From Nevskia sp. (GTDB lineage Bacteria; Pseudomonadota; Gammaproteobacteria; Nevskiales; Nevskiaceae), in contig JAUXYM010000096.1 in NCBI GenBank assembly GCA_030694365.1, forward strand, positions 1 to 64,000: a stretch of DNA of 64,000 nucleotides. The letters are read 5' to 3'. Positions within the stretch are counted from its first letter, which is position 1; each line of letters begins with the position of its first letter. The position numbers and the translations under genes were made by a program. Below the pieces are notes generated by a model. It worked only from the letters and a program-made list of their open reading frames with translations. It did not search any database and was not told the origin of the DNA. Positions 53,348 to 64,000 of the stretch are shown here, piece after piece.

Positions 53348-53839
53348 TCAGACCAGGTCGCTGTGCTGCGGCACCGGCTGGCCTTCGTCAAAGAACGCCA
53401 TCGATACCGAGTTCAGGCAGTAGCGCAGGCCGCTCGGCCGCGGGCCATCGTTGAACACGTGGCCGAGGTGGCCGTCGCAGCGCTGGCAGCGCACTTCGGT
53501 GCGGACCATGCCGTAGCTGCGATCGGTGATGTTACGGATATGGGCCGCATCGAAAGGCTCGAAAAAGCTCGGCCAGCCGGTGCCGGAATCGAACTTGGTG
53601 TTCGAGCGGAACAGCGGCAGGCCGCATAGCCGGCAGGCGTAGGTGCCGGCTTTCTTGTTGTCGACGAAGTGGCCGCAGAAGGCGCGCTCGGTGCCGTGCT
53701 CGAGCAGCACGCGGTGCTCCTCGGCGTTCAAGGATTGCGCCAGCTCGGTCTTCAGCGCGGGGCTCAAGGGCCGCAGATCGTAGCCGCTGGGCGACGGCGG
53801 GACCGGAGGATTGACGATGACGGGTTCTGGTTTGGCCAT
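53348..53839 (-). CDS. msrB: Peptide-methionine (R)-S-oxide reductase
   Basis: A 163-residue MsrB. ATG 53839 (MAKPEPVIV) is the natural start; a longer in-frame extension runs into msrA. Two zinc CxxC pairs are present (CRLCG and CQRCDGHLGHVF), as are SGTGWPSFF and the catalytic cysteine in LRYCLNSVSM. It reduces R-methionine sulfoxide in proteins or free. It forms a pair with msrA, 34 bases upstream. Confidence 0.93.
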   Translation of the reverse strand: MAKPEPVIVNPPVPPSPSGYDLRPLSPALKTELAQSLNAEEHRVLLEHGTERAFCGHFVDNKKAGTYACRLCGLPLFRSNTKFDSGTGWPSFFEPFDAAHIRNITDRSYGMVRTEVRCQRCDGHLGHVFNDGPRPSGLRYCLNSVSMAFFDEGQPVPQHSDLV

Positions 53840-53873
53840 GATTGATTTCCAAATCGATTGATTGTTCGGGGGA

Positions 53874-54503
53874 TTACTTGCGGAGGTAGTCGGCGAACTT
53901 GTGTTCGAGCTTGTCGACCTTCGGCAGCGCCACGCCGGCGATGTACGGCTGGCCAGGATTCCGCAGCGCGTAGTCCTGGTGATAGACCTCGGCGGTGAAG
54001 AACTCCTCCAGCGGCACCAGCGCGGTGACGATGGGGCTGTGGAACACTTTTGCGGCTTCGAGCTGGGCGATGTAGGCGGCGGCCACGTCGCGCTCGGCGT
54101 CATCGTGGACGAAGATCGCCGAGCGGTACTGGCGGCCGCGGTCGTTGCCCTGGCGGTCGAGCGTGGTTGGATCGTGGGCGACCGCGAACAGCACTTTCAG
54201 CAGCGCACCGTAGCTGATCACGGCCGGGTCGTAGACGATCTTGACGACTTCGGCGTGGTCGGTGCGGCCGCTGCAGACCGCTTCGTAGTTGGCGCTGTCG
54301 GCACTGCCGCCGGCATAGCCGGAAATGACTTCGGATACGCCGTCGAGGCGCTCGAACACCGCTTCCACGCACCAGAAGCAGCCGGCCGCGAAGACGGCTT
54401 CCTGCGGCCCATCGGTGGTCGGGCTCAGATCGCGGGCCGGGTCGGGAAAACCGGAATGGTCGGCGCGCCTGGCGGCGGCGGGAAGATCACAGACGATGTT
54501 CAT
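53874..54503 (-). CDS. msrA: Peptide-methionine (S)-S-oxide reductase
   Basis: A 209-residue MsrA. ATG 54503 is supported by CCCTCC just upstream on the minus strand; an in-frame start at 54602 would add 33 untypical residues. The catalytic motif is AGCFWCVEAVFERLDGV, with the expected GYAGG and downstream NDRGRQYRSAIF. It reduces S-methionine sulfoxide and is followed by msrB, so both stereoisomers are covered by one transcript. Confidence 0.93.
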   Translation of the reverse strand: MNIVCDLPAAARRADHSGFPDPARDLSPTTDGPQEAVFAAGCFWCVEAVFERLDGVSEVISGYAGGSADSANYEAVCSGRTDHAEVVKIVYDPAVISYGALLKVLFAVAHDPTTLDRQGNDRGRQYRSAIFVHDDAERDVAAAYIAQLEAAKVFHSPIVTALVPLEEFFTAEVYHQDYALRNPGQPYIAGVALPKVDKLEHKFADYLRK

Positions 54504-54670
54504 GGAGGGCTCGCTTGGGGGTTTGGAGTCGGAGGCAATGGCGGCGGCATCAGCGGCACGGCCGAAGTCTGCGGACCAGCGGGTATTGAGGCAGCGGATC
54601 ATGCGCCAATCGTCCGGCCGCGACCGGCAAGCTGTCTGCGCCGGGCCGTTCCGGATTCATGGCCGATCCT

Positions 54671-55099
<429 letters not shown>

Positions 55100-56459: not shown

Positions 56460-58715
56460 CTATCTGCGAACCGGCACATCAATGCTGCTGCCGCTATACC
56501 AGCGGATCGTCAACGGCTTCCTGGCGTCGCGAGCGGTCTCTTCCTTGACGTCCTTGCCGGAGCCGAGATTGAGCTGCTGGTCGGGCCGCTTGTTGACGCC
56601 GAGCACCAGCACGATCCGGCTGCCGGCCGTGAGCTTGCGGCTGGTCAGGCGCTCGATGGTGAACGGCAGTTGCTGGCGTTTGCCTGCGACCAGCAGCCGG
56701 CGACGGGTTCGGTCCTTGGCATAGCTCGCGCGGAACTCGTAGGGATCGAATAGCTGGAGGTAGGTGCCGCCGGCCAGCAACTCGTAGACCGTGATTTTCA
56801 GATCGACGTCCTGCTTGTTGACCTTCAGATCCAGCTTGCCGCTTAGTTGGCCGCTGATTTCCAGCGGCTGCTGCAGCGGTTCGCTCGAGTAGACGACGGC
56901 GTTTTCCGCCAGCAGGTTCTTGCTCATCACTTCCGATGGCGGAATCGTGAGGTCCTTGCGATCGGAGAAGTCGACGGTCTGCTCGGCGTAGCTGTCCGCC
57001 GACGCGGGGCGTTCGGCCAGACGGCGGCGCTCGTTCGGCGCGCCTGCGTCGAGAAAGTATCGCTGCGGGGCATTGGCCATCGCGGCGATCGACGGCGCGT
57101 GGCGCCATTGGTTGGCGCCCATCACCTGGTAGTTGATCCGGTCTTTCAGTAGCGCCGGCTTGGGCGCGTTCTTGAAAATGGAATCGAACCATTGATAACG
57201 CAGTTCCCGCAAATTGGTCTGCGCGACGGCATCCAGCAGGTAGCCTTTCAAGTCCGGCGCCGGAGCGTCCTGCGCGACGTTGTCGTCGTAGGGGCCGATC
57301 AGCAAAGTGTGATTGGCTTTGGCGTTGTAGCGCACGTGCTCGCTGAAGGTGTAGAGCGCGCCGGCATCGCCGCCGTAGTAGCCGGCCAGGGTCAATACCG
57401 GGATATTGACCCTGGCGAACTGCTTGCGGAACGGGATCAGCTTCTGCCAGTAACGATCGTAGCTAGGGTGATCCAGCCACTCGTCGAAGGCGCGGTTCGG
57501 CGGCGCGTAGCGGCGATCCAGATCGCGGTAACGCTTGCCGCTGGTGAACCAGGTCTGATCCAGCAGTCGCCAGACCATGTCGTCTGTGCTCGGCGGGGCC
57601 AGGCCTGGTTTGAGGGGCGGCAAGGTATTGAATTGCGCCCAGCGATACGCCGAGTTGCGGACGATGTTGCCGCTCATCGGGAAATCGATGCCCGGCGCGG
57701 ACGCGAAGCTGGTGGCGATGGCCTTGAGGGCTTTGGGCGGACGCTTGGCGACGGCCCAGGCAGCCGAGCCGCTATCGGTGCCGCCGACCATGCCGACCCG
57801 GCCGTCGCTCCAGCTCTGCTTGGCGATCCAGTTGATCACCGCGCGCGCATCTTCGCCGTCGTGAGTGAACGGGGTGACCGCATTCGGGTTGTTGCTTCGC
57901 TTGCCGCGCGTGTACGCCACCACGCCGACATAGCCGTGCGCCGCCGCTTCGCGCGCTGAATCCTGAGTGATGTGGATGCTGAATTCGAGCAGGGTAGGCA
58001 ATGGAATCGAAGCGCCCTTGGGGCGGATCACCACCGCCTGGATCCGCCGCCCGCCTGAGGTCTTGATCGTCACCTGCTCGTCGGCGATGTAGCGACGCCC
58101 GCCGTCCTCGGAATCGAGCGCTTCGATCAGCGGGCTGAAGCTGCGATAGGCGTCGAAGGACAGGTAAGTCCAGATCAGATCCACCGCCTGGGTGAAGTCG
58201 ACGCTGCCCTTGGCGCGGTATTGATCGAAGGACTTCTGCAAGGCCTGCTCGAACACCGAGCGCGGCGTCTCCAGCCAGACCGTCACCGCATGCGCGTCGC
58301 GATCGTTGAGCCGCGGCACCACTTCCTTGAAGGCCTGCTTGAAGGCATTGGCGAACGGCAGGCCGCTGGTGGTCTCGATGGACCTTGCCCGCGCGTAGAT
58401 GTCGTAGAGCACGGCCTTGTCGACCGGGCGCGGCAGGTTCGATGGACGCTGCCGCGCCTGCAGCGACAGCCGCGTGTCATAGGCCGCCGTGTAGTCACCG
58501 GCGACCAGTTGCAGCGCGGCGAGGTTGGTCAGATAGCGGTCGATATCGCGCTCTTCGTAGACCGGCAGGATGCGAGTCGCGAGATCGCGCATCGCCGCGG
58601 GCGCTGAAGCGTCGTTGGCGGTCGGCGGCGGGCGGAACTCGAATTCCTGCGCCATCGCCACACAAGGCAGCCAGCTCATCAACCACAGCAGACTCAGCCA
58701 GGAGATTCGCTTCAC
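56460..58715 (-). CDS. CocE/NonD (S15)-family hydrolase with substituted active site
   Basis: A 751-residue exported protein (signal peptide ends SWLPCVAMAQ). The overall S15 pattern is clear: VTIKTSGGRRIQAVVIRPKG, GYVGVVAYTRGKRSNNPNA, APGIDFPM and a C-terminal beta-jellyroll. The usual nucleophile loop GGSYxG reads GGTDSG (Thr313 in place of Ser), the usual GYYD reads GYYGGD (Gly448 in place of Asp), and the usual GPYDH reads GPYDD (Asp478 in place of His). Comparison is from memory of the family. The protein may be inactive, binding-only or use shifted residues. It overlaps the ABC gene by four bases and is last in the glycosidase operon. Confidence 0.8.
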   Translation of the reverse strand: MKRISWLSLLWLMSWLPCVAMAQEFEFRPPPTANDASAPAAMRDLATRILPVYEERDIDRYLTNLAALQLVAGDYTAAYDTRLSLQARQRPSNLPRPVDKAVLYDIYARARSIETTSGLPFANAFKQAFKEVVPRLNDRDAHAVTVWLETPRSVFEQALQKSFDQYRAKGSVDFTQAVDLIWTYLSFDAYRSFSPLIEALDSEDGGRRYIADEQVTIKTSGGRRIQAVVIRPKGASIPLPTLLEFSIHITQDSAREAAAHGYVGVVAYTRGKRSNNPNAVTPFTHDGEDARAVINWIAKQSWSDGRVGMVGGTDSGSAAWAVAKRPPKALKAIATSFASAPGIDFPMSGNIVRNSAYRWAQFNTLPPLKPGLAPPSTDDMVWRLLDQTWFTSGKRYRDLDRRYAPPNRAFDEWLDHPSYDRYWQKLIPFRKQFARVNIPVLTLAGYYGGDAGALYTFSEHVRYNAKANHTLLIGPYDDNVAQDAPAPDLKGYLLDAVAQTNLRELRYQWFDSIFKNAPKPALLKDRINYQVMGANQWRHAPSIAAMANAPQRYFLDAGAPNERRRLAERPASADSYAEQTVDFSDRKDLTIPPSEVMSKNLLAENAVVYSSEPLQQPLEISGQLSGKLDLKVNKQDVDLKITVYELLAGGTYLQLFDPYEFRASYAKDRTRRRLLVAGKRQQLPFTIERLTSRKLTAGSRIVLVLGVNKRPDQQLNLGSGKDVKEETARDARKPLTIRWYSGSSIDVPVRR

Positions 58716-60520
58716 GGCCGGTCACTTCCGGGAACTGGATGCGGTATTTCCGGTGCCGCCTTGACCAGATGCAGCACGCGGGAGAACAGACGGTTGCCGG
58801 TCTCCGCAGCCTTGCCGATGTGGACGATGCTGGTCGTCGACAGCTCGTGAGTCAGCACGTCGATGACCCGCTCGAGCGACTCGTCCTCGAGCATGCTCAA
58901 GGCCTCATCCATCACCAGCCAGGAAGGTGATTGCAGCAGCACGCGCGAGAACGCCAGACACATCTGATCCTCGTGACTCAGCTCGCGATCCCAGCGCCGC
59001 TCGGCATCGAGCAGCGGCACCAGCCGCTCCAGCCCCAGGCGCTTGAGCGCGTGCTCGCAGGTGCTGTGCGCGAAGCTGTCAGCCGCCAGCGGGTAGGCGA
59101 GCACTTCGCGCAAGCTGCCGCTGGGCAGGTAAGGCGTGCCGCGCGGCATGTACAGGATCGGCTCGTCCGCCGGACGCGTGATCTCGCCGACGCCCCAGGG
59201 CCACAAGCCGGCGAGGGCGCGGAACAGCAGGGTCTTGCCGGTGCCGGCGGTGCCCAGGATCAGCACCCGCTCTCCGGTTCGGACGACGACGTTGGCCTGG
59301 TCCAGCCGATCACGTCCCGGTGCCGATTCGACCTCGAGTCCGGCGATGCTCATCGAGCCGCTGGCGCCGTCGGTATAGGTGATGCGGCTCGCGTAGCGAA
59401 CCATCTCGGCATTCGCGGTCAAGGCTTCGCGGAAGCCGGCGACGCGCAGCAGAGTGGCGCGCCACTCGGCGATGGTGCCGAAGTTGTCGACGAACCAGCG
59501 CAGCGCCTGCTGCGCCTGGGTGAACGCGGCGGCAGCCATCATCATGCCGCCGAAGGAAATCTTGCCGGTCAGATAGAGCGGCGCGGCGATCAGGATCGGC
59601 GCCACCAGAGTGGTCCAGCCGAAGCCGGCGGTGACCCAGGTCAGGTGGGTCCAGCCGCGCACCAGGCGGCGCATCGCCGCCATCACGTCGCCCAGATGGC
59701 GTTCGACGCGACGCTTCTCATCGGCCTCGCCGGCGGCGAGCGAGATGCCGTCCAGGTGTTCGTTGATGCGCACCAGCGCGAAGCGCAACTCGCCTTCGCG
59801 CGAGTAGCGATCGGCATTGCGCGCGATCAGGCTGCGCCCGACCCAGTAACTCAGCAGCGAGCCGGTGCCGGCATACAGGATCGCCGCCCAGACCATGAAG
59901 CCGGGCACCGCGTAGTCGATGCCGCCGATGCGGATGCTGAAGTCCGCCGAGATGCCCCAAAGGATGCCGGAGAACGAAATGAACAGGATCGAGGCCTGCA
60001 GCAGACCGGCGCCGAGATCGGTCGACAGGTCGCACATCTTCTGCGCGTCTTCGGTCATCCGCTGATCGGGATTGACGCCCATCGGCCCTGCGGTGGACAG
60101 CCAGAACGCGCGGCGCGGCAGCATCCAGTGGCCGACCAGATCGCGCACCACGCCTTCCCGCAGCTTGATCTTCAAGCTCTCCAGCACCCAGCGCTGAAAG
60201 ACGTTGAGCACCAGCAATAACGCGGCGATCATGAAGAACACGCCGAGCTGGACCAGGAACTCGCGCAGGTCGCGACGCGACAGCGCGTCGTAGAACGGCT
60301 TGTTCCAGCGATTGAGCACGATCTGCCCATAGGAGGTGGCGATGATCACCACCAGCAGGCTGCCCATCAGAACCTTGAGCGAGCGCCCGACCGACGACGC
60401 GAACAGCGCCCGCCGCAAGGTGCCGAGCTGACGGAGCACGCCCGAGCGGGCACCAGCCTCGGCCGCCAGGGCTGCGGCATCGGCGGCGCTGTCCTTAATG
60501 GTCCTGCCCCAAGGCCGCAC
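58712..60520 (-). CDS. SbmA/YddA-type ABC transporter (permease-ATPase fusion)
   Basis: A protein of about 600 residues with an SbmA_BacA-like membrane domain (GQIVLNRWNKPFYDALSRRD is diagnostic) and a C-terminal ATPase. The start is uncertain: GTG 60520 gives a 26-base overlap with the GH15 gene; other in-frame codons further up are weaker. Walker A GTAGTGKT is intact. The signature reads LSHEDQ instead of LSxGEQ, the D-loop region SMLE instead of SALD, and the switch-histidine position in HIGKAAETG is Lys. ATP turnover may therefore be altered. It sits between GH15 and the S15-like gene and may import or export an oligosaccharide or peptide (inference). Confidence 0.78.
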   Translation of the reverse strand: MRPWGRTIKDSAADAAALAAEAGARSGVLRQLGTLRRALFASSVGRSLKVLMGSLLVVIIATSYGQIVLNRWNKPFYDALSRRDLREFLVQLGVFFMIAALLLVLNVFQRWVLESLKIKLREGVVRDLVGHWMLPRRAFWLSTAGPMGVNPDQRMTEDAQKMCDLSTDLGAGLLQASILFISFSGILWGISADFSIRIGGIDYAVPGFMVWAAILYAGTGSLLSYWVGRSLIARNADRYSREGELRFALVRINEHLDGISLAAGEADEKRRVERHLGDVMAAMRRLVRGWTHLTWVTAGFGWTTLVAPILIAAPLYLTGKISFGGMMMAAAAFTQAQQALRWFVDNFGTIAEWRATLLRVAGFREALTANAEMVRYASRITYTDGASGSMSIAGLEVESAPGRDRLDQANVVVRTGERVLILGTAGTGKTLLFRALAGLWPWGVGEITRPADEPILYMPRGTPYLPSGSLREVLAYPLAADSFAHSTCEHALKRLGLERLVPLLDAERRWDRELSHEDQMCLAFSRVLLQSPSWLVMDEALSMLEDESLERVIDVLTHELSTTSIVHIGKAAETGNRLFSRVLHLVKAAPEIPHPVPGSDRP

Positions 60521-61823
60521 GCCGGGCAGCGATGCAGGAGATGAAGGCGGCGTAGCTCCAGGCCAGATGTTTGGCCGAGGTTTGCCGACCGTTGTCCTGA
60601 TCGAATTGTTCGGACAGCGCGCCACTCGCCGGCGTCCAGGCGCGCACCGTCTCCAGGTAGGCATCGCCGCGTGCGATCCAGTGCGCGGCCTGGTCCGATT
60701 TCATCGCCGCACGAAAGCAGAACTCCGAAGCACCCAGGGTCGAGAAGTAGTAGGCGCCGCCCGAGTAATAGACATCGCCCGGATAGCGGCCCATCGCCGG
60801 GCCTCGATCCGCCGGGCGATTGCGGTTGATCGCATAAAGCCCGTCGAACAGGGTTTCAAGACGCGCCAGAGTCGCCTGCATGCGCGGGTCGGCTACCGAG
60901 TGCTTTTGATCGCCGGCTTCGACATGGATGGCCGCGAGGATCACCGCGATATCCAGTTCCTTCGACGAGCGTTCTCCGGACGTGAGCGTCCGCGATCGGT
61001 AGCAATTTTCTTCGGCGAGCCAGAAGCCATCCAGGGCTTTGACGAGCATCGAAGCCTCTGCACGACAGCACAGCGCCAGCCCGGGCTCAGCCTGCGACTC
61101 GAACCAACCGGCACCCTGCTCAAGTGCTGCGGCCGATACTCTCAGCGTGTAGTAGTGCAGCCCGTTTTCCTCTTCCCAGATGTCGAAAGACGGCTCGTGG
61201 CAATGGTGCAAGGTGAAGTCGAGATTGGCGCGAATCAGCGCAGCGAGATCGGCACTGACGGCGGGCGCAAGCTCAACATCACGCGCCCAGCGCATCAAGG
61301 CCAGCGCTTGCAGCGGCGGACCATCGTGCTGCGGCCGTGCCCACTTGGAGATGTCCAGGCTGCCATCGGGATTGACCCGGGTTTCGGCGAACGCGGCATC
61401 ACCATGCACAGCGGCGAGATCGTCGTCTTCCCGGATGAACTTCAGGAAATCCGGAGCGACGCCATCGCGCCGCGTCGGCGATGCCGCCAGTGCGCGCCCG
61501 TCCAGCTTCTGCAGCGACAGACCAAAGCGCAGGAAGTCGGCGAACTGCTGAAGCGCCTCGGGCCCGACCACGCCCTCGAGAAACAGCAGGCGCAACGCGT
61601 CGATCACCACCGCCGAATCGCGGTACCAGTGAAAGAAATAATCCGGGTCCGGATCGTAGGCGCCGAGCACCGATGAGGCGATGATGCTGCCCTTGACCGG
61701 ACGCACCGTCTGGCCGAAACCCGGCCGCGTCTTGACCAGATCGACCGCCGACACGCTGTTCAGCATCGCGTTTGCCGCGTAGGCCGCCTGGCGATCCAGC
61801 CACTGATGAAAGCGCTCCGTCAC
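60495..61823 (-). CDS. Glycoside hydrolase family 15 (glucoamylase-like)
   Basis: A 442-residue (alpha/alpha)6 enzyme. GTG 61823 is chosen for its GTGA overlap with the GH144 stop; longer frames have a non-family N-terminus. Family landmarks are DYFFHWYRDSAVVIDALRLL, HDGPPLQALALMRWARDVEL, SFDIWEEENG (catalytic acid Glu) and GALSEQFDQDNG (catalytic base Glu). It lacks the starch-binding domain of fungal glucoamylases and shows no signal peptide. GH15 releases glucose from non-reducing ends; linkage preference here is unknown. Confidence 0.85.
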   Translation of the reverse strand: MTERFHQWLDRQAAYAANAMLNSVSAVDLVKTRPGFGQTVRPVKGSIIASSVLGAYDPDPDYFFHWYRDSAVVIDALRLLFLEGVVGPEALQQFADFLRFGLSLQKLDGRALAASPTRRDGVAPDFLKFIREDDDLAAVHGDAAFAETRVNPDGSLDISKWARPQHDGPPLQALALMRWARDVELAPAVSADLAALIRANLDFTLHHCHEPSFDIWEEENGLHYYTLRVSAAALEQGAGWFESQAEPGLALCCRAEASMLVKALDGFWLAEENCYRSRTLTSGERSSKELDIAVILAAIHVEAGDQKHSVADPRMQATLARLETLFDGLYAINRNRPADRGPAMGRYPGDVYYSGGAYYFSTLGASEFCFRAAMKSDQAAHWIARGDAYLETVRAWTPASGALSEQFDQDNGRQTSAKHLAWSYAAFISCIAARRAALGQDH

Positions 61824-63154
61824 GGAGCGGCTCCCGCTACCAGATGCGGGCTGCTGAAGCCCAGCCGGCGCAGGCCGGTCTGCACTTCGGGCACGCTCAT
61901 GAACAGCTTCCATAGCAGGCCCGTGCGATGGTTTTCCATCATCACCACGATGGGCCCCTGGTCGATCGCCAGAAAGGTGTCGGCGGTCCAATCGTGCTGC
62001 TCGTTGAAGGCGTCGACGAAGCCATAGCGCTTCCAGATCTTGTCGCCGTGCTCGCGCAGGAAATAACGCAGCGTTGCCATGACTTCGTTGGGCGCATAGG
62101 GCAGGCTCGCCAGCGCCGCAGTCGGCGTGATGGTGCCGTTGTCGTTGTCAGGCGCATGCGCCGAGTAGCCGGCATGATCGTCGCTGGCGGTCAGGCCCCA
62201 GCAGGTCTCGCCATAGCCCTTGAAGCGATGCGGATTGGCAATGCAGTGCGCGCGATTGATCTGCACATGCCGGCAGTTCAGATCCCAGTAATCGGCATAG
62301 CGATCCTTCAGGTCGCGCGGATCGAGGCCGCAGAACGAGTAATGCGTGAAGAACAGCGGCCCGCCATAAGGCATGCCCAGCGGCAGCTTGATCCCGTAAT
62401 AGGAACTGCCATTGAGAAAGCCCCGGCCTGCGGCAAAGCCCTGGTGGTAGACGACGGGATCAATCGGATAGCGCCTGGACCCCGCCGCCAGCACGTAGGT
62501 GACCAGGCACTCGTTCCAGCCACGAATCTCGTGATTCATCGCCCAGCCGTTGTTCGGGCTCCAGTGCCAGTACAGCAGCTTGCGGCCGCCTTGCGTGTAC
62601 CAGTCCCACTCGACTTCGTCGCTGATCCAGTTGATGCGGTCGCGCAGCTTCTTTTCGGCTGGCGTATCGCGCTGGAAATATTGGCGCGCGCACAGCAGGC
62701 CCATCACCAGGAACGAGGTTTCGACCAGATCGCCCGCGTCATCCTTGCGGCTGAAAGCGATGGTGGCGCCGGTGCGGCCGTTCATGAAGTGCGGGAACGC
62801 GCCGTGGTAGCAAGTTGCGCGCACCAGCACGTCGAGCATGCTGGTCAGGCGATCCAGTGCTGCTTCGCGGCTCACCCAGCCGCGCTCTACCGCGACGATG
62901 ATCGCCATCACGCCGAAGCCTGAGCCCCCCGTGGTAATCAGATCATCGGACGATCCAACTCTCGGCGGCGAGCAGTCGGGTGCAAGACCGCTGACCGGAT
63001 GCGCGCCCTGCCAGAAGAAATCGAAAGTCTGACGCTGGACCTGCTCCAGCAGCGCCTCGTCTGGCAGCGCTGCAAGCGCCGCACCTGATCGTTCGGCCAC
63101 CGCTGCATGGCGATGAGGTGCTTGGGCACTCTTGATATTTTCCGCTGTCACCAT
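61820..63154 (-). CDS. GH144-like glycosidase (glycoamylase-like domain)
   Basis: A 444-residue protein. ATG 63154 is preceded by AGGAGG, so longer frames are rejected. The C-terminal part is the PF10091-type glycoamylase-like domain of GH144 endo-beta-1,2-glucanases: TGGSGFGVMAIIVAVERGWV, YWHWSPNNGWAMNHEIRGWN, CWGLTASDDHAGYSAHAP and FLAIDQGPIVVMMENHRTGL. GH144 cleaves beta-1,2-glucan to sophoro-oligosaccharides; related domains also occur in cyclic glucan synthases. No signal peptide is evident. First gene of the minus-strand operon, divergent from GH3. Confidence 0.82.
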   Translation of the reverse strand: MVTAENIKSAQAPHRHAAVAERSGAALAALPDEALLEQVQRQTFDFFWQGAHPVSGLAPDCSPPRVGSSDDLITTGGSGFGVMAIIVAVERGWVSREAALDRLTSMLDVLVRATCYHGAFPHFMNGRTGATIAFSRKDDAGDLVETSFLVMGLLCARQYFQRDTPAEKKLRDRINWISDEVEWDWYTQGGRKLLYWHWSPNNGWAMNHEIRGWNECLVTYVLAAGSRRYPIDPVVYHQGFAAGRGFLNGSSYYGIKLPLGMPYGGPLFFTHYSFCGLDPRDLKDRYADYWDLNCRHVQINRAHCIANPHRFKGYGETCWGLTASDDHAGYSAHAPDNDNGTITPTAALASLPYAPNEVMATLRYFLREHGDKIWKRYGFVDAFNEQHDWTADTFLAIDQGPIVVMMENHRTGLLWKLFMSVPEVQTGLRRLGFSSPHLVAGAAP

Positions 63155-63305
63155 GAGGCCTCCTGATTGCCCTTCTTTGATTGCACGGATTCTGACGGCA
63201 TTGGCTGATCCGGGTGCATCTATCGCGCCTGACAGGCTCGCTGCCCATTCATTCTGGCGACCTATCATGGCCAAGCCCCGAAACACTTCCAGAAAGGACT
63301 GATTG

Positions 63306-64000
63306 ATGAGCCGTATCGACAAGCTGCTGGCCCAGATGACGCTCGAAGAGAAACTCGGCCAGCTGACCATGACCGCCTCCAGCTATGCGGTGACCGGCCC
63401 GATCATCGCCGGTGACTCGACCGATTCGATCGCCGACGGCACCCTCGGCAATCTGTTGAACATGGTCGGTTCCGGTCCGACGCACGAGATGCAGCGACTG
63501 GCGGTGGAAAAATCGCGCCTGGGCATTCCGCTGCTGATCGGCCTTGATGTGATCCACGGCCATCGCACTTTGTTCCCGATCCCGCTGGCGGAGATGGCGC
63601 TGTTCGATCCGCGGGCCTGGGAGCTGACCGCGCGAGAGGCCGCCGCCGAAGCCGCCGCCGACGGCCTGGCGATGACCTTCAACCCGATGCTCGATGTCTC
63701 CCGCGATCCGCGTTGGGGCCGCACCGCCGAAGGCCCGGGCGAAGACCCCTGGCTCGGCGCGCGACTGGCCGAGGCCAAGGTCCGCGGCTTCCAGACCGCC
63801 GATCTCGCCCGCCCTGATGCGCTCGCCGCCTGCGCCAAGCATTTCTGCGCCTATGGGCCGGTGATGGCCGGGCGCGAGTACGCGTCGGTGGACATCTCCG
63901 AACGCACCCTGCACGAGGTGCACCTGCCGCCGTTCGAAGCGGCGGTGGCCGCCGGCGTCGCTTCGATCATGCCGGCGTTCACCGATCTGAACGGCATCCC
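63306..64000 (+). CDS. GH3 beta-glucosidase, 3' truncated by window end
   Basis: The N-terminal 231 codons of a GH3 enzyme; the nucleophile region and second domain lie beyond base 64000. Features are LLAQMTLEEKLGQLTMTASS, the GLDVIHGHRTLFPIPLAEMA segment, DPRWGRTAEGPGEDPWL and AKHFCAYGPVMAGREYASVD, as in BglX-type enzymes. No signal peptide precedes MSRIDKLL, so it may act inside the cell. It should release glucose from beta-linked oligosaccharides, such as those made by the GH144 neighbour. The 151 bases between the two starts must hold both promoters. Confidence 0.9.
   Translation, partial: MSRIDKLLAQMTLEEKLGQLTMTASSYAVTGPIIAGDSTDSIADGTLGNLLNMVGSGPTHEMQRLAVEKSRLGIPLLIGLDVIHGHRTLFPIPLAEMALFDPRAWELTAREAAAEAAADGLAMTFNPMLDVSRDPRWGRTAEGPGEDPWLGARLAEAKVRGFQTADLARPDALAACAKHFCAYGPVMAGREYASVDISERTLHEVHLPPFEAAVAAGVASIMPAFTDLNGI

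Follow-up and report, generated by a model that had tools for sequence, protein, structure and literature searches.

The window, that is, the whole stretch of 64,000 nucleotides of Nevskia sp. DNA that we analysed, comes from contig C98 of a 3.08-Mb draft assembly in 124 contigs and carries near its end a cassette of five genes, whose starts we refined from those of homologues and from ribosome-binding sites. Four of them follow one another on the minus strand: a beta-1,2-glucanase-like enzyme of family GH144 (61820..63154; ATG at 63154 preceded by AGGAGG), a GH15 glucoamylase-like enzyme (60495..61823; GTG start at 61823), an SbmA/YddA/Rv1819c-type ABC transporter composed of a transmembrane domain and a degenerate ATPase domain (58712..60520; most likely starting at GTG 60520 within an open frame that reaches up to 60664), and an S15/CocE-like secreted protein of 751 aa (56460..58715; GTG start at 58715). 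They face a plus-strand GH3 beta-glucosidase gene (ATG at 63306), which is cut by the end of the window: its N-terminal part occupies 63306..64000, the whole protein of ~715 aa ends at contig position 65450, and the contig continues to 69,891. The families and orientations that the original prediction had given to these five genes were all confirmed by Pfam and NCBIfam. The predicted chain of overlaps facing GH3 also held for the four minus-strand genes, with one correction: GH144 and GH15 overlap by GTGA and GH15 and the transporter by 26 bases, and the overlap between the transporter and the S15-like gene, described before as ATGA, is also GTGA. The divergent intergenic region between GH144 and GH3 (151 bases, 63155..63305) presumably holds promoters in both directions; a search for operators in it yielded nothing convincing, the short imperfect palindromes at the gene starts being unshared among relatives.

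Regulators or porins, which the original prediction suggested looking for past position 64000, were not seen in the 5.9 kb beyond the window, where the open reading frames following GH3, examined by eye, correspond to acyl-CoA thioesterase-like, RmuC-like, and small repeat-rich proteins. The contig ends there with two adjoining related genes for secreted-looking proteins with GGTTGGTTSGTT repeats (L002:18547-19892, contig positions 68546-69891, outside the window). Neither was a SusC/SusD pair, the criterion for a Sus-type polysaccharide utilisation locus, present among the open reading frames of C98:50000-69891 or, by eye, in the other flanks, and no outer-membrane receptor linked to the cassette was seen. 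Scanning the window for Rfam families and tRNA genes gave no matches. On the other side of the cassette, and unrelated to it, a Pfam-confirmed MsrA gene and an MsrB-like frame adjoin a glyoxalase-family gene (window positions 53348-55099).

The GH144 protein served as query in a scan of 84,980 species genomes, which was followed by tblastn searches with all five proteins. Recurrent separation of these genes in relatives had been named as evidence against a common locus; the outcome was the opposite, the genes being kept together and the same set recurring across genera and classes. The complete block, GH3(-)|GH144>GH15>ABC>S15, was found in Nevskia, Solimonas, Panacagrimonas, Variovorax, and Methylibium. 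A variant lacking an S15 match, GH3(-)|ABC>GH144>GH15, occurs in Methylocapsa L054 and in L008 and L041, and L050 shows it as far as its contig reaches; Labrys lacks GH15 and has ABC>GH144. In the family to which the window belongs, GH144 and GH15 are both carried by the identical 15 of 58 genomes, with the transporter and S15-like genes adjoining, and GH15 never occurs without GH144. Under independence, such identical genome sets would have a probability of 3e-14, a value that is indicative only because related genomes are not independent. GH15 was present in two of the 201 sampled genomes of the Variovorax family, and the newly seen one has the whole block. Two further genomes of the window's own family (G036, L100 7077-13375; G047, L101 6397-12723) contain only a reduced module, GH3|ABC>S15, and no close GH144 or GH15 anywhere else; what the transporter carries in that module may therefore be smaller or of another kind. 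Being recurrent across families and classes, the arrangement is far beyond chance, and the cassette is a real conserved unit. Its patchy occurrence and the persistence of its genes side by side therefore indicate an accessory cassette, kept together in the soil and water bacteria that host it.

None of the three glycosidases has a signal-like N-terminus, in agreement with the original prediction that they lack signal peptides. In GH3, the N-terminal domain is present, and the full-length protein is similar to 3u48 (606 bits), 5xxl (579 bits; presumably the structure of BT_3567), and Lin1840 (500 bits), its relatives being JMB19063, 5xxl, and Lin1840. Both Lin1840 and the Bacteroides thetaiotaomicron GH3 enzyme BT_3567 are active on beta-1,2-oligoglucosides (PMC12369401). 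The nearest structures to the GH144 protein, which contains the PF10091 domain, are 4gl3, the endo-beta-1,2-glucanase CpSGL, and BDI_3064, with scores of 470 bits for CpSGL, 418 for BDI_3064, and 183 for XcSGL. Residues D135, D139, E142, and E211, catalytically important in CpSGL (PMC12102758), have equivalents in the window GH144 and throughout the aligned cassette copies. The GH144-clan glucanases assayed to date are specific for beta-1,2-glucan (PMC12102758), and the family also includes exo-type, sophorose-releasing enzymes, so that the cassette enzyme may be endo- or exo-acting. The GH15 protein has a short glucoamylase-like domain (PF00723) with both catalytic Glu motifs, WEE and SEQ, conserved. 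By alignment, the catalytic residues of GH144 and GH15 are intact, and the sequences of GH144 and GH3 agree with a beta-1,2-glucan chemistry.

The presence of GH15 bears on which form of the glucan is used. Beta-1,2-glucan alone requires no alpha-glucosidase. Its alpha-1,6-cyclised form, which Ralstonia, Xanthomonas, and Cereibacter make as their osmoregulated periplasmic glucan, requires three activities for its breakdown: GH144 would supply the beta-1,2-glucanase, GH3 the beta-glucosidase, and GH15, provided that it is specific for alpha-1,6 linkages, the alpha-1,6-glucosidase. Such glucans, of 13, 16, and 18 units, are known from Ralstonia solanacearum, Xanthomonas campestris, and Cereibacter sphaeroides (PMC11842490), and the one of Xanthomonas is produced by an OpgD enzyme (PMC11228985). 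A GH13 alpha-glucosidase gene adjoins the cassette in 16 of 20 Variovorax loci (within L010-L030 and L048), directly behind GH3 on the same strand in L023 and L029 and mostly convergent with the S15-like gene elsewhere. All these enzymes have a Val after the nucleophile Asp (motif GFRVDV), which in that GH13 group is characteristic of activity on alpha-1,6 bonds (PMC5074314); they lend independent support, without being proof, to an alpha-1,6 role. The GH15 enzyme itself resembles a glucoamylase and possibly prefers alpha-1,4 bonds; its subsite residues do not decide the matter.

The transporter is a YddA/Rv1819c/SbmA-type fusion matched by the Pfam SbmA_BacA family, whose transmembrane domain aligns with SbmA with an hhalign probability of 97.7 (23% identity over 297 columns). 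It is homologous to both SbmA and Rv1819c, which are importers; this group imports bulky hydrophilic molecules. These relatives and the glycosidases devoid of signal peptides suggest import as the direction of transport. Among 39 cassette copies, which include the duplicates L105 and L106 of L031 and L006, the Q-loop Gln and the H-loop His are lost in 38 (replaced by Arg and by Ser, Arg, Lys, or Ala, respectively), the glycines of the LSGGQ signature are gone in all, and in 30 another residue stands in place of the Walker A Gly that precedes Lys; the Walker A Lys persists in 37 and the Walker B Asp in 38. Rv1819c and five PF06472 paralogues encoded elsewhere in cassette genomes (L107-L110, L116) keep both Q and H. 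The exception is Methylocapsa L054, in which Q and H are kept and the Walker Lys is not; it is placed close to the root of the cassette clade, which suggests that the ATPase decayed after recruitment of the transporter. From these alignments the loss of ATPase motifs is clear, and transport without ATP hydrolysis is an idea that we favour slightly less than its opposite. The glutamate ladder of SbmA is partly present, the equivalents of E193, E276, E287, and E378 being acidic in 39/39 copies and those of E203 and E269 absent, so that the transporter may act in the style of SbmA. Classification as a true SLiPT was ruled out by the non-conserved E203 and the presence of an ATPase domain. According to a 2026 study of SbmA, SLiPTs derive from YddA-like ABC transporters after loss of the ATPase (PMC13316013). 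Compared with SbmA/BacA (SLiPT) and YddA/BclA/Rv1819c, the cassette protein thus shares a homologous transmembrane domain and four of six acidic ladder positions; it differs from SbmA/BacA in retaining an ATPase domain, with Q-loop, H-loop, and signature lost, and in lacking equivalents of E203 and E269. In E. coli K-12, sbmA is followed by yaiW, encoding a surface lipoprotein (L119:1640-3967), a loose parallel to a transporter with an exported partner.

The S15-like protein begins with a signal peptide (cleavage MKRISWLSLLWLMSWLPCVAMA/Q), followed by an N-terminal helical domain, an alpha/beta-hydrolase domain, and a C-terminal jelly roll. Its fold and domain order match those of S15/CocE hydrolases, cocaine esterase being the nearest and PepX-type enzymes far behind; the predicted structure, of moderate quality (pLDDT 67.8, pTM 0.48), served for fold assignment only. 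When the triad positions were located by alignment to Ser117, Asp259, and His287 of CocE, Ser and His proved lost in each of 34 cassette-linked copies (L105 and L106, second copies of L031 and L006, included) and Asp in 33: Ser is replaced by Gly, Thr, or Asp, Asp by Gly or Ala (L007 keeps Asp), and His by Ala, Asp, or others. The triad Ser-Asp-His is intact in two relatives that are not linked to a cassette, L102 (41% identical) and L121 (32% identical); L121 was the one further match in a class-wide search for S15 relatives in 369 genomes. The cassette protein therefore differs from CocE/NonD and S15 hydrolases, with which it has fold and domain order in common, by its missing Ser-Asp-His triad, by an extra N-terminal helical domain of ~180 residues, and by its linkage to the cassette. 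Loss of the aligned catalytic triad in otherwise well-conserved proteins suggests that a role different from hydrolysis was selected for. The simplest candidate is binding, and we propose the protein tentatively as a binding partner, a role that is perhaps a little less probable than some other. A function as deacylase of succinylated glucan was dropped, the triad being absent.

These observations support the originally predicted glucan-processing unit, for whose substrate an internal or an imported origin had been left open, in a form with import and cytoplasmic hydrolysis, the identity of the substrate being what we infer. The missing triad of the S15-like protein, the degenerate ATPase domain of the transporter, and a rationale for GH15 are additions to that prediction. 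Beta-1,2-glucan is probably that substrate; for its alpha-1,6-cyclised form in particular, we see about even chances. The cassette would then import a beta-1,2-glucan with an alpha linkage, most likely the alpha-1,6-cyclised one, and hydrolyse it in the cytoplasm to glucose, a scheme that as a whole has an equal prospect of being right or wrong. In such a pathway, the secreted triad-less S15/CocE-like protein would bind periplasmic glucan and hand it over to the SbmA/Rv1819c-type transporter, which, given its eroded ATPase motifs, would import it while depending hardly or not at all on the hydrolysis of ATP. GH144 would open and shorten the beta-1,2 chain, GH3, as expected from its family, would take beta-1,2-linked glucose off the non-reducing end, and GH15, aided in Variovorax by GH13, would remove the alpha-linked glucose otherwise blocking the beta-acting enzymes. 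A stronger version, in which a new type of glycan importer, formed by an SbmA/YddA-type transporter with a non-hydrolysing structural or regulatory ATPase remnant and a glycan-binding hydrolase relative, delivers cyclic glucans of 13-18 units whole to the cytoplasm, seems rather unlikely. Several facts count against the import of cyclised glucan: the reduced modules L100 and L101, the Labrys locus without GH15, the lack of a linked outer-membrane receptor among those seen, the capacity of most cassette genomes to make their own periplasmic glucan, and the possible alpha-1,4 preference of GH15.

That capacity raises the question of whose glucan is degraded. MdoG-family (OpgG/OpgD) genes occur in G000 and in 18 of 21 tested genomes, so recycling of the cell's own osmoregulated periplasmic glucan, in which the Opg product would be brought back through the inner membrane and broken down once superfluous, is a real rival, the more so as the enzymes fit the same chemistry and such retrieval agrees with the lack of a linked outer-membrane receptor. 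Synthesis of periplasmic glucan is widespread, whereas the cassette is patchy (15/58 genomes in its family, 2/201 sampled in that of Variovorax), and one Variovorax (L017) has the cassette and no MdoG match. The patchiness and this MdoG-less genome argue mildly for scavenging, and we consider own-glucan recycling unlikely.

Two other readings give the transporter a different cargo. It might serve a broader salvage of oligosaccharides, in which beta-glucosides, beta-1,2 or other, are processed by GH144 and GH3 and alpha-1,4 malto-oligosaccharides by GH15, as the glucoamylase-type motifs kept in GH15 and the existence of GH3|ABC>S15 without GH144 and GH15 would allow. If GH15 had an alpha-1,4 role of its own, however, it would not be expected to occur in the family solely in the company of GH144, and in Variovorax the GH13 beside the cassette carries the Val that is characteristic of activity on alpha-1,6 bonds; together these points make this salvage improbable. 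Peptides are imported by SbmA (PMC13316013) and the S15 family includes X-Pro dipeptidyl peptidases, so that the transporter and the S15-like protein could also be imagined to import a glycoconjugate, such as a glycosylated peptide, from which the glycosidases strip the sugars. This we regard as very improbable, given that the S15-like protein is closest in sequence and fold to cocaine esterase, with PepX-type enzymes far behind, that no peptidase is linked to the cassette, and that the tested GH144-clan glucanases act specifically on beta-1,2-glucan (PMC12102758).

Intracellular use of beta-1,2-oligosaccharides by means of beta-1,2-specific glycosidases and an ABC transporter is known from Listeria innocua (lin1839-1841) and Streptomyces griseus (SGR_2422-2427) (PMC12369401). 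Those clusters encode an ABC importer of canonical type together with its solute-binding protein, in contrast with the SbmA/YddA-type transporter with degenerate ATPase, the S15-like secreted protein, and the GH15 enzyme of the cassette. Bacteroidota loci, for example those of Chitinophaga (L032-L082), resemble the cassette in having GH144 beside GH3, but their stretches contain no homologue of GH15, the transporter, or the S15-like protein, except for a partial S15-like match of 33% in L077. Many of these Bacteroidota loci contain two adjoining GH144-family genes with GH3 nearby. Literature searches that combined GH144 with either GH15 or Variovorax, in which coverage of subscription papers was poor, returned no description of the cassette, and no described breakdown pathway for alpha-1,6-cyclised beta-1,2-glucan was found in the literature searched. 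Xanthomonas campestris needs this glucan to infect model plants (PMC11842490). If the cassette degrades it, soil and plant-associated bacteria would be a source of enzymes to detect and degrade the cyclised glucan. Moreover, an uptake system with two parts that are degenerate yet conserved makes the proposed origin of proton-driven SbmA-like transporters from YddA-like ABC transporters testable (PMC13316013) and, if it is indeed a new importer, the cassette system would represent a surviving intermediate stage in the proposed transition from an ABC transporter to proton-driven SbmA.
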